64,000 nucleotides of DNA from Tetradesmus obliquus (lineage: Eukaryota > Chlorophyta > Chlorophyceae > Sphaeropleales > Scenedesmaceae): NCBI GenBank assembly GCA_030272155.1, contig CP126207.1:1364001-1428000 (forward strand), written 5' to 3'. The notes beneath the pieces were generated by a model. The model made no database searches and had not been told where the DNA came from. It worked only from the letters and a program-made list of their open reading frames with translations. This document shows, in pieces, positions 1,531 through 63,410 of the stretch (its first letter is position 1; the number at the start of each line of letters is the position of its first letter). Made by a program: the position numbers and the translations under genes.

Positions 1531-1788
1531 TGATTCCATTCGCAGCATAAACACAGGAGGCAGTCATAGTGTGACGCCATGCATTGATTTAGCTGCTGTG
1601 TAGGTTGATTCACCTCTTGGAGTGGTGAAGTATCTTTATTGTTGATGAGTAACAAGCCCTGGCTTGTGGGTTCGCACTCACTGGTTAGGAATCACCCAAG
1701 GTGGTTTGGGAGTGGCTGCCTCCTCTGGGTTCACCTCTTGCTAGAAAAACGTGTAATTGATTGAACAAGCCATACACAAGTAACGCAC
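1531..1788. other. No gene recognised
   Basis: Between the minisatellite and the truncated SAM50 exon 6 copy. Two short direct repeats around TTCACCTCTTG (1610 and 1729) are visible. No further SAM50 barrel exon could be identified on the minus strand. Confidence 0.5.
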
Positions 1789-1852
1789 CTGACAACGCCC
1801 AGGCTCAGGCCCCGCATCGCCTCACTCCAGCTGCTGTGCAGCTGCTGGTTGA
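1789..1852 (-). repeat. Truncated copy of SAM50 exon 6 3' end
   Basis: The sequence encodes NQQLHSSWSEAMRGLSLGVV followed by a GT donor. It matches the 3' end of the complete exon at 2100-1932, about 140 bp downstream in the transcript sense. The 5' half of the exon is missing. Confidence 0.8.
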
Positions 1853-1931
1853 AAGCACCTGTTTTCCAGACTGTAATCCAACTTTTGTAACTGTAACAAC
1901 TAAGTGGCACGTCTAATAACAGGTAACACAC

Positions 1932-62700: not shown

Positions 62701-62732
62701 CACCAAACCCCAGCTGGCTGGAGGAGTTTTGA
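41724..62732 (+). CDS. PP2C / cyclic-nucleotide-binding / AGC-kinase-like fusion protein (plant PKG type)
   Basis: Exons: 41724-41841, 43909-44171, 44579-44673, 45314-45484, 45688-45745, 46029-46161, 46603-46733, 47248-47405, 48659-48845, 49145-49584, 50137-50212, 50717-51080, 51277-51384, 52239-52315, 52810-52950, 53317-53427, 54146-54220, 54917-55089, 55302-55419, 56432-56593, 57422-57551, 58523-58710, 59551-59702, 60489-60631, 61279-61448, 62529-62732. All 25 junctions keep frame; 1381 residues. Order: MGCGGSK (N-myristoylation-type), PP2C (about 40-376), Gln/Ala linker, cNBD-A (about 586-840), cNBD-B (about 841-1053), AGC-kinase-like domain (about 1054-1381) ending WLEEF. This is the architecture of Arabidopsis At2g20050 and its relatives, described as plant cGMP-dependent kinases. 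The domains suggest a membrane-tethered, cyclic-nucleotide-regulated phosphatase/kinase. The linkers are longer than in the plant proteins. Confidence 0.93.
41955..42715 (+). repeat. Array of 3' copies of fusion-gene exon 1
   Basis: Four clear copies of the segment encoding [24 protein letters not shown] sequence with (often) GTGAGG donors, ending near 42027, 42212, 42400 and 42531, plus a relic near 42665-42700. The complete exon is 41724-41841. Confidence 0.88.
43310..43815 (+). repeat. Three 5' copies of fusion-gene exon 2
   Basis: Starts near 43314, 43512 and 43709, about 197 bp apart, then the complete exon at 43909. Each copy ends with TIRYA followed by TAG where the complete exon continues YVSQRG. 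The first copy has lost its AG acceptor (GCAC for GCAG). Confidence 0.9.
44883..45235 (+). repeat. Three 5' copies of fusion-gene exon 4
   Basis: Acceptor plus [17 protein letters not shown] coding at 44883, 45036 and 45166, before the complete exon at 45314. All acceptors are intact. A single truncated exon 3 copy is at 44304-44358. Confidence 0.9.
46225..47200 (+). repeat. Copies around fusion-gene exons 6, 7 and 8
   Basis: Exon 6 3' copies at about 46230-46305 and 46355-46398 ([19 protein letters not shown]). Exon 7 5' copy at about 46430-46500 and 3' copies at about 46805-46889 and 46955-47030. Exon 8 5' copy at about 47105-47195. Confidence 0.85.
47552..48055 (+). repeat. Three 3' copies of fusion-gene exon 8
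   Basis: Each encodes [19 protein letters not shown] and ends with a donor, at about 47552-47624, 47765-47836 and 47983-48054; period about 210 bp. Confidence 0.9.
48659..49584 (+). other. Gln/Ala-rich linker between PP2C and cNBD-A
   Basis: Exons 9-10 (about residues 376-585). Contains a (CAG)n poly-Gln tract at about 49260-49329, poly-Ala runs, and islands of ordinary sequence ([34 protein letters not shown]). Length is likely polymorphic. Confidence 0.85.
49735..50700 (+). repeat. 5' copies of fusion-gene exons 11 and 12
   Basis: NFLFSHL copies with acceptors start at 49735, 49867 and 50016 before complete exon 11 (50137). Copies of [19 protein letters not shown] start at 50453 and 50592 before complete exon 12 (50717). 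Confidence 0.9.
50137..52950 (+). other. Cyclic-nucleotide-binding domain A
   Basis: Exons 11-15. [19 protein letters not shown] opens the helical lead, then [21 protein letters not shown] Gln/Gly/Ser-rich insertion of roughly 130-150 residues interrupts the barrel. The phosphate-binding cassette [16 protein letters not shown] (804-819) is intact, with Glu806 and Arg815, which contact ribose and phosphate in the family. The Ala at the position often Thr/Ser in cGMP-selective sites gives no clear cGMP preference. Confidence 0.88.
51515..52555 (+). repeat. 3' copies of fusion-gene exons 13 and 14
   Basis: Three exon 13 end copies ([23 protein letters not shown]) at about 51520-51597, 51745-51821 and 51955-52038. 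Two exon 14 end copies ([12 protein letters not shown] plus GTGAGC) at about 52432-52462 and 52522-52555. Confidence 0.87.
52716..54840 (+). repeat. Copies around fusion-gene exons 15-18
   Basis: Exon 15 5' copy 52716-52768. Exon 16 5' copy from 53220 and 3' copies near 53490, 53600 and 53840. Exon 17 3' copy 54305-54334. Four exon 18 5' copies ([14 protein letters not shown]) near 54487, 54593, 54698 and 54799, about 105 bp apart. Confidence 0.86.
53317..56593 (+). other. Degenerate cyclic-nucleotide-binding domain B
   Basis: Exons 16-20. [20 protein letters not shown] followed by [15 protein letters not shown] is a normal barrel opening. The cassette reads [14 protein letters not shown] to SMVARGR (975-999). 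FGE is kept but the cassette Arg-Ala-Ala/Thr segment is absent, so ligand binding is doubtful. An Ala/Gly/Ser-rich insertion (about 915-958) is present. Confidence 0.82.
55600..57024 (+). repeat. Copies around fusion-gene exons 19 and 20
   Basis: Three exon 19 3' copies ([17 protein letters not shown]) at about 55630-55696, 55830-55900 and 56008-56069. Exon 20 5' copy from 56269 and two 3' copies at about 56695-56812 and 56917-57022. Confidence 0.88.
57197..59345 (+). repeat. Copies around fusion-gene exons 21 and 22
   Basis: One exon 21 5' copy at 57200-57288. Three exon 22 5' copies near 57977, 58166 and 58334 ([15 protein letters not shown]). Three exon 22 3' copies near 58857-58934, 59048-59139 and 59258-59342. 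Confidence 0.87.
57422..62732 (+). other. AGC-kinase-like domain, probable pseudokinase
   Basis: Exons 21-26. No GxGxxG loop or VAIK lysine is seen; RLFCVEGAVQQRGL occupies that region. The catalytic loop reads [12 protein letters not shown] (HRD Asp is Gly1190; no K-x-x-N). The DFG position is DFR (1208-1210). The activation segment is AGC-like and kept: [16 protein letters not shown]. The C-lobe ([30 protein letters not shown]) is well formed. The plant homologues, as I recall them, share the altered HRD and DFG positions. Confidence 0.85.
59770..61567 (+). repeat. Copies around fusion-gene exons 23-25
   Basis: Exon 23 3' copies at 59805-59878 and 59940-60000. Three exon 24 5' copies near 60072, 60206 and 60348 (period about 141 bp). 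Exon 25 5' copies near 60866 and 61132 and a 3' copy at 61482-61564. Confidence 0.86.
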
Positions 62733-63410
62733 TTAAGCTGTGTATGGTCAGCAGCAGCAGCACGTCTTCGGTACTCCTGGCGCCACCACCACCACCAGCA
62801 GCTGCTGCTGCAGCAGCAGCAGAAGCAGCAGCAGAAGCAGACGCCTGTGTCTGCATGTGGCCGCTGGGCTTGAGGCAGCGGCTGTTCCATTCAGGAGGAG
62901 GTGGCCAGCTAGGGTTCTGGACGCCGCAGCCCAGGGAGCCAGGCGCCCCAAACCCTGCCTGGCTGGAAGAATTCTGATCCAGCTGTAAATGGTTTGCAGC
63001 AGCAGCAGCAGGGCTGCACGCTGGTTCTGCTGCCACCACTGCCAGCAGCAGCAGCAGCAGTTGCGTGTCCACAGCAGGGCCTGAGGGAGCGGCTGTTCTA
63101 TTCAGGAGGTGGCGACGAGCTATGCTTCTGGACGCCGCAGCCGAGAAGAGCTGGAGCACCAAACCCTGCCTAGCTGGAGGAGTTCTGAACACCGTTCTAG
63201 GCAGCAGCAGCAGGTCTGCAGCACTTTCGGCGCCAGTATTAGCAGCTGCTGCAGCAGCAGCAGCAGCAGCAGCGTGCCATGTGTCTGCACGCTGCCCCTG
63301 GGCTTGTGTGATGGCTGTTCTGCTCTGGGAGTCGTGGTGAGCTAGGGTTCTGGACACCACAGCCAAGGAAACCTGGGGTGGCAAACCTTGCCGGGCTGGA
63401 CGACTAACAG
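61711..63410 (+). repeat. Copies around the last fusion-gene exon, including three extra 3' ends
   Basis: Five 5' copies ([12 protein letters not shown]) start near 61713, 61917, 62101, 62262 and 62354 before the complete exon 62529-62732. Downstream, the [12 protein letters not shown] to WLEEF-stop end recurs at about 62868-62977, 63080-63188 and 63310-63405, the last two with damage. Confidence 0.9.
62984..62988 (+). terminator. Candidate TGTAA poly(A) signal after the second copy of the gene end
   Basis: TGTAA follows the stop of the first downstream end-copy (62977). The primary stop (62732) is followed by TGTGTATGG at the matching position, so the usable signal may lie in the copy. Confidence 0.4.

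Follow-up and report, generated by a model that had tools for sequence, protein, structure and literature searches.

Why should the exons of a gene be accompanied, within the adjoining introns, by several truncated copies of their own ends? The question is raised by a 64,000-nucleotide stretch of the genome of the green alga Tetradesmus obliquus (bases 1364001-1428000 of contig 17, in an assembly of 104.66 Mb and 17 contigs), here called the window and numbered from its first base, and above all by a gene in it that encodes PP2C phosphatase, cyclic-nucleotide-binding and kinase domains (the kinase gene in what follows). For this species, PMC5966456 gives a GC content of 57% and a mean intron length of 462 bp. 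Copies of an exon start with its acceptor site lie upstream of the exon, and copies of an exon end with its donor site lie downstream of it. Their geometry is that of tandem duplication across exon-intron junctions, they are spread beyond the window, and they have diverged under coding constraint; they resemble exon ends whose coding role was lost only recently.

The copies are real. In a self-BLAST of the window, run after masking of short-period repeats, 144 of the 145 matches are direct with a spacing below 1 kb, the matches cover 30.1% of the window, and no direct match has a spacing of 1-64 kb. Genes were modelled by spliced alignment of homologous proteins to the DNA, and the analysis was based on six models, namely the kinase gene and five CCT chaperonin genes elsewhere (L036-L040, which are five of some ten CCT-type loci that a genome-wide Pfam search detected). 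The CCT models were built from partial chaperonin templates and cover the templated parts only, and the exon lists were curated by hand: before counting, end exons that were small or dubious were dropped, as were spurious short exons in the kinase model. At least one mapped truncated copy is present at 19 of the 23 listed exons of the kinase gene, the sole window gene modelled. The first-pass annotation had described such copies in all six genes of the window; this is borne out by a model for the kinase gene, and for the septin-like gene and the others by local repeats and translations only.

The polarity of the copies was examined with 40-bp probes searched over 1,200 bp on each side at a score threshold of 36, leaving aside low-complexity probes and exons shorter than 45 bp; the highest control scores were 22 for shuffled targets and 33 for the sequence of other genes. 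In the six modelled genes, copies of exon starts were found upstream in 33 of 49 cases and downstream in none, while copies of exon ends were found downstream in 28 of 50 cases and upstream in none. This agrees with the earlier description of one complete unit per array; every truncated one lies on the intron side. Recognisable copies were also found for 7/26 and 6/49 probes from the intron flanks and for 15/35 probes from exon middles, and 27 of 87 far-intron probes have a copy, 19 of those 27 matching a verified exon. At the level of repeat families, 66 of 81 touch a verified exon, as against 39.0 ± 4.2 (maximum 49) under random placement in 400 draws; the other 15 lack such contact, some of them where no template existed. 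Altogether, 114 copies in 60 arrays were mapped at 43 of the 57 exons of at least 45 bp (54 acceptor-type and 60 donor-type copies), with six further matches that stop short of the exon edge set aside. The copied exon part has a median length of 66 bp, and breakpoints are often common within an array: 42 of 86 copy pairs agree within 3 bp, the median spread is 3.3 bp within arrays versus 19 bp between arrays, and 27 breakpoint-sharing pairs are also related in sequence beyond the breakpoint.

Junction-spanning tandem duplication explains this geometry, as had been proposed at first reading. The family-level contact test was used in place of a stricter one, in which repeats spanning the true junction in the kinase gene showed no excess (18/44 junctions versus 20.8 ± 2.9 in circular shifts), in part since many matches stop at the junction itself. 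Complementarity of the exon halves, expected of one nested insertion, was not significant in 17 exons (p 0.12), nor was an age trend along the arrays.

New introns are known to arise by tandem duplication (PMC4974935, PMC3443670), and PMC3443670 describes a potato case in which the duplication crosses an intron-exon boundary. The first-pass annotation had accordingly seen in the arrays possible intermediates or by-products of intron gain through duplicated AGGT-containing segments. AGGT is somewhat denser in the duplicated exon parts than elsewhere in exons (4.35 versus 2.98 per kb), but only 14 of 60 arrays contain an AGGT within the exon part that was duplicated, and the kinase gene has no repeat pair, among 76, that joins a true donor to a true acceptor. 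In 44 verified introns, the in-register homology between exon and intron that such an origin should have left is absent (0.550 versus 0.534 and 0.530 versus 0.527). With its defining tests failed, in-register homology and AGGT alike, intron gain was rejected, and it is very improbable as an account of these arrays.

The pattern is not a peculiarity of the window. Among 20 arbitrarily placed 10-kb stretches on contigs 1-7, of which 19 are readable and one (L007, contig 2, 531234-541233) consists entirely of N, local direct repeats are present in 18 of the 19. Direct matches number 125 at local distance and 10 at 1 kb or beyond, inverted ones none and one, respectively. Their mean coverage is about 8.4%, and the window is therefore denser than average. 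No match was obtained with letter-shuffled sequence from five loci, among them evidently the all-N stretch, and coding potential under the repeats of these stretches was -0.061 versus -0.084 ± 0.017. Overlapping tandem matches to one protein segment, judged by eye, form two clusters among the 65 HSP70 matches listed (C13:4749955-4750450 and C17:238408-238865) and one among the 135 kinesin matches listed (C2:7430665-7431399), and are seen in CCT genes among the 61 matches listed (for instance C16:4172823-4173294); the majority of the listed matches in all three tables lack such overlap, and the tables give no estimate of frequency because short copies rarely reach the cut-off. The arrays thus extend, at lower density, beyond the genes in which they were first noticed.

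Could the arrays be an artefact, in which diverged haplotypes or strains have been concatenated around exons during assembly? The copies do resemble diverged functional alleles, but the periods of the arrays are fairly regular, and an array can contain as many as five diverged units. Moreover, an upstream truncated exon copy of this kind is present in two open reading frames homologous to the septin-like gene, P0128 (second-match score 49 versus a shuffled maximum of 31) and P0236 (53 versus 32), which lie on JGI contigs from other organisms (presumably from metagenomes), and this recurrence in other assemblies is evidence against an artefact; two further frames tested likewise, P0122 and P0125, have no upstream copy. 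An assembly artefact is, on these grounds, quite unlikely.

An unexpected result lies in how the copies differ from the true exon. In the final alignments each copy was confined to its own stretch, which hardly changed the main ratios from those of earlier alignments; in the simulation and in the analyses of splice strength, truncated ends, exon 21 and the septin frames, alignments could extend into a neighbouring copy. Over the 114 copies, differences from the true exon amount to 0.043, 0.038 and 0.201 at the first, second and third codon positions, a ratio of positions 1 and 2 to position 3 of 0.202 (0.15-0.275 in a bootstrap over 43 exons). The proportions of synonymous (pS) and nonsynonymous (pN) differences are 0.280 and 0.035 (pN/pS 0.126), and of 445 third-position changes 431 are synonymous and 14 nonsynonymous (97%, versus 69.7% synonymous expected at random). 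Constraint is present in all six genes (pN/pS 0.045-0.180) and the codon-position pattern remains when CpG contexts are removed (0.034/0.032/0.131). Divergence is not over-dispersed (chi2 94.1, df 107). Differences common to all copies of an array against the true exon number 2, 3 and 51 by codon position, and those unique to one copy 37, 42 and 107; no amino-acid change at all is found in 37 of the 114 copies, 23 of which have at least three synonymous ones, and among the 32 arrays with at least two copies, 4 are free of such change in every copy. Copies compared with each other give a pS of 0.258, versus 0.280 between copy and true exon, and a pN/pS of 0.238. A three-base periodicity of mismatches is also seen independently of annotation, in the stretches elsewhere (622 of 1199 versus 562.8 ± 9.0, in 114 segments that overlap and are not independent) and in the window outside the kinase gene (241 versus 217.5 ± 5.6, again with overlapping segments).

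These figures bear on the simplest explanation, that of ordinary local tandem duplications, dead from birth and tolerated because they are spliced out, whose exon parts are only seemingly conserved. The geometry would follow from it automatically; young, near-identical repeats do exist (34670-34735 and 34928-34993 are 100% identical), duplicates remain recognisable for longer in their exon parts than in their intron parts, and the indels in the copies comprise 15 frameshift events versus one in-frame. A copy dead from birth was simulated, with the copy unconstrained, the true exon changing only synonymously and all bases mutating at an equal rate, and gave a ratio of 0.595 ± 0.053 in 60 simulations (minimum 0.502), far from the value observed. 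GC content by codon position is 0.67, 0.43 and 0.80, and if only G and C mutated the expected ratio, estimated by hand, would be about 0.40. The predominance of synonymous third-position changes, the undiminished splice sites where these are kept (see below) and the constraint between copies (pN/pS 0.24) likewise count against this explanation. Neutral decay does not explain the divergence of the copies, and the codon-position result rejects death from birth for the bulk of them; as a general account it is rather improbable, and most copies are under a protein-level constraint that contradicts the earlier picture of passive leftovers.

Splice sites give a similar picture. The AG is retained in 50 of 54 acceptor-type copies and the GT in 57 of 60 donor-type copies, and where it is retained the site scores as the true one does: 6.46 versus 6.44 for donors (any GT, -1.67) and 2.76 versus 2.97 for acceptors (any AG, -0.08). 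The adjoining intron is mostly diverged, with a 40-bp identity of 0.667 on the acceptor side (0.51 for unrelated junctions) and 0.528 on the donor side (0.356). Broken copies number 20 of 114 (12 with a frameshift, 2 with a stop, 7 with a lost splice dinucleotide). Their pS equals that of intact copies (0.278 versus 0.281) and their pN/pS is nearly the same (0.165 versus 0.118); divergence therefore preceded breakage, most of it having arisen with both sequences still coding, and breakage is recent.

The main alternative arises here: the copies may be in use now, whether by an RNA-level route that has gone unrecognised or by serving as a recombination reservoir from which the functional end is overwritten, and selection may act on them directly or indirectly. 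It would account for the constraint on intact copies, for the copies free of amino-acid change, for splice sites kept at full strength and for the constraint between copies that share a truncation. Splice dinucleotides are, however, almost missing from the truncated ends, where 2 of 54 acceptor-type copies have a GT and 1 of 60 donor-type copies has an AG, and a usable donor before the first stop follows 13 of 54 acceptor-type copies, no excess over the fraction of 0.34 at random intron points; no route into a full-length message is therefore evident. Seamless splicing of a copy into the true exon would, moreover, require the AGGT present in only 14 of 60 arrays, and the broken copies also speak against present function. 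Current use is accordingly an unlikely explanation.

What we propose, tentatively and at somewhat less than an even chance, is junction duplication combined with a recombining pool of exon ends, some of which are now retired. In many genes, short tandem duplications across exon-intron junctions would build up arrays of truncated ends, which together with the functional end would act as one recombining pool. Gene conversion or unequal exchange, probably between haplotypes that have diverged, would repeatedly switch the end joined to the exon body. Most copies would accordingly be ends that had long been coding, with working splice sites, and whose retirement is recent. What we infer here is the route of recombination and the existence of diverged haplotypes. 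Recent retirement, most simply of ends from other haplotypes, would explain at once why the copies are constrained, why their splice sites are strong, why pS is similar across pairs and why only a minority is broken. Several observations weigh against this explanation. The 27 copy pairs sharing a truncation are partly constrained (ratio 0.437, interval 0.28-0.60) and constraint extends close to the truncated end, so that crossovers near that end or continuing selection would be needed. Frequent exchange predicts that neighbouring copies are alike, and on average they are not; broken copies show no clear excess farther from the true exon (8/60 versus 12/54, p 0.23); and a synonymous diversity near 0.28 would be extreme. 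A stronger version, in which the arrays are a working reservoir, that is, genome-wide cassettes of a coding exon end and a functional splice site that regularly swap with the end in use, is possible though not likely; if it held, introns of this lineage would serve as a store of spare exon ends, tested and synonymous, on which purifying selection acts.

Some likeness to known systems can be found, and in each case a difference. Tandemly duplicated or mutually exclusive exons consist of extra exon copies within introns, with intact splice sites; extra exon sequence inside introns and intact splice sites are found here too, but the copies are truncated, possess one of the two splice sites, and never lie on the wrong side at 99 exon ends. 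In gene-conversion cassette arrays, such as those of variable surface antigens, truncated copies stand beside one expressed copy, as they do here, where exchange is possible; unlike surface antigens, however, these genes are housekeeping genes and their copies diverge mainly synonymously. Such cassettes are defined by demonstrated exchange between silent and expressed copies, with which the constraint and the similar pS of all pairs are compatible. Introner-like mobile introns are widespread in the introns of algae, and the arrays are likewise a widespread pattern affecting algal introns, but no shared element is found within the window, where no direct self-match lies beyond 1 kb. Finally, intron gain by tandem duplication, as described in PMC3443670, has in common with the arrays a duplication inside a gene, in the potato case across an intron-exon boundary, while here there is no sign of a new intron, most exons of the six modelled genes are arrayed and the copies are constrained. 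No description of such exon-end arrays was found among the open-access literature matches listed, in a search partly aimed at exon-end copies.

If the proposed explanation is true, a large share of the intronic sequence surrounding many exons would be a record or store of coding sequence and not inert filler, and a case of intron-internal sequence evolving under protein-level selection. Gene prediction and the analysis of alternative splicing in this group would be disturbed, and the rate and consequence of exon-end recombination would become directly testable.

The kinase gene shows the arrays in most detail (Table 1). Its closest named homologues are from Scenedesmus sp. PABB004 and Raphidocelis, its domain fusion is as annotated in land plants, and a few poorly conserved exons are missing or uncertain in its model. 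The array of the last exon (62608-63403) contains four diverged tandem C-terminal ends with a stop codon, the true one and three copies; it spans the stop codon and the following sequence, and a splice site is therefore not required. At exon 21 (60119-60631, copies and true unit), the nearest copy has a 60-bp intron flank identical to that of the true unit, while its 64-bp exon part differs at several sites, mostly synonymously; single cases such as this are suggestive of separate histories of exon and intron parts, with too few clean pairs for a claim. Some exons of the gene encode long poly-Q or poly-A stretches.

Table 1. Modelled gene and mapped arrays of exon-end copies in the window (window coordinates)
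Feature	Position	Strand	Details
PP2C + cyclic-nucleotide-binding + kinase gene	41724..62729	+	spliced alignment to homologues; 23 exons listed
Septin-like gene, acceptor-side copies of DPDSLKTVLEPMEV exon and P-loop exon	29338..30901	-	repeats, translations, septin family match
Exon 1 (41724-41841), donor-side copies	41955..42530	+	junctions 42027, 42213, 42396
Exon 2 (43909-44171), three acceptor-side copies	43307..43908	+	junctions 43315, 43512, 43709; exon part 100 bp each
Exon 4 (45314-45484), three acceptor-side copies	44877..45313	+	junctions 44883, 45036, 45166
Exon 6 (46029-46161), donor-side copy	46242..46306	+	
Exon 7 (46603-46733), acceptor-side copy	46455..46602	+	
Exon 7 (46603-46733), donor-side copy	46805..46891	+	
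Exon 8 (47248-47405), three donor-side copies	47406..48060	+	junctions 47624, 47835, 48054
Exon 8, further acceptor-side repeat	47043-47192	+	
Exon 11 (50137-50212), three acceptor-side copies	49729..50136	+	
Exon 12 (50717-50829), two acceptor-side copies	50446..50716	+	
Exon 14 (53317-53427), two donor-side copies	53577..53900	+	acceptor-side copy at 53220
Exon 16 (55302-55419), three donor-side copies	55548..56075	+	
Exon 17 (56432-56593), two donor-side copies	56698..57028	+	
Exon 19 (58523-58710), acceptor-side copies	57952..58522	+	mapped junctions 58165, 58334
Exon 19 (58523-58710), three donor-side copies	58848..59346	+	
Exon 21 (60489-60631), acceptor-side copies	60119..60488	+	
Exon 22 (61279-61448), two acceptor-side copies	60858..61217	+	donor-side copy 61482-61582
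Exon 23, last (62529-62729), acceptor-side copies	61696..62461	+	junctions 61712, 61918, 62102, 62261, 62354
Exon 23, three copies of C-terminus, stop codon and following sequence	62853..63403	+	without donor site

A search against Rfam gave no match at gathering scores. In the window, blocks free of local repeats adjoin dense ones (4000-8000, 12000-18000, 22000-26000 and 38000-40000) and are probably intergenic, although coding potential gave no clean separation. Very dense pure CAG/CTG triplet runs of up to 38 units occur at 26541-26644, 29820-29933 and other positions, and ten-base minisatellites of the GGTCAAACTT type or its complement recur at 8290-8326, 18747-18775 and 34628-34927.

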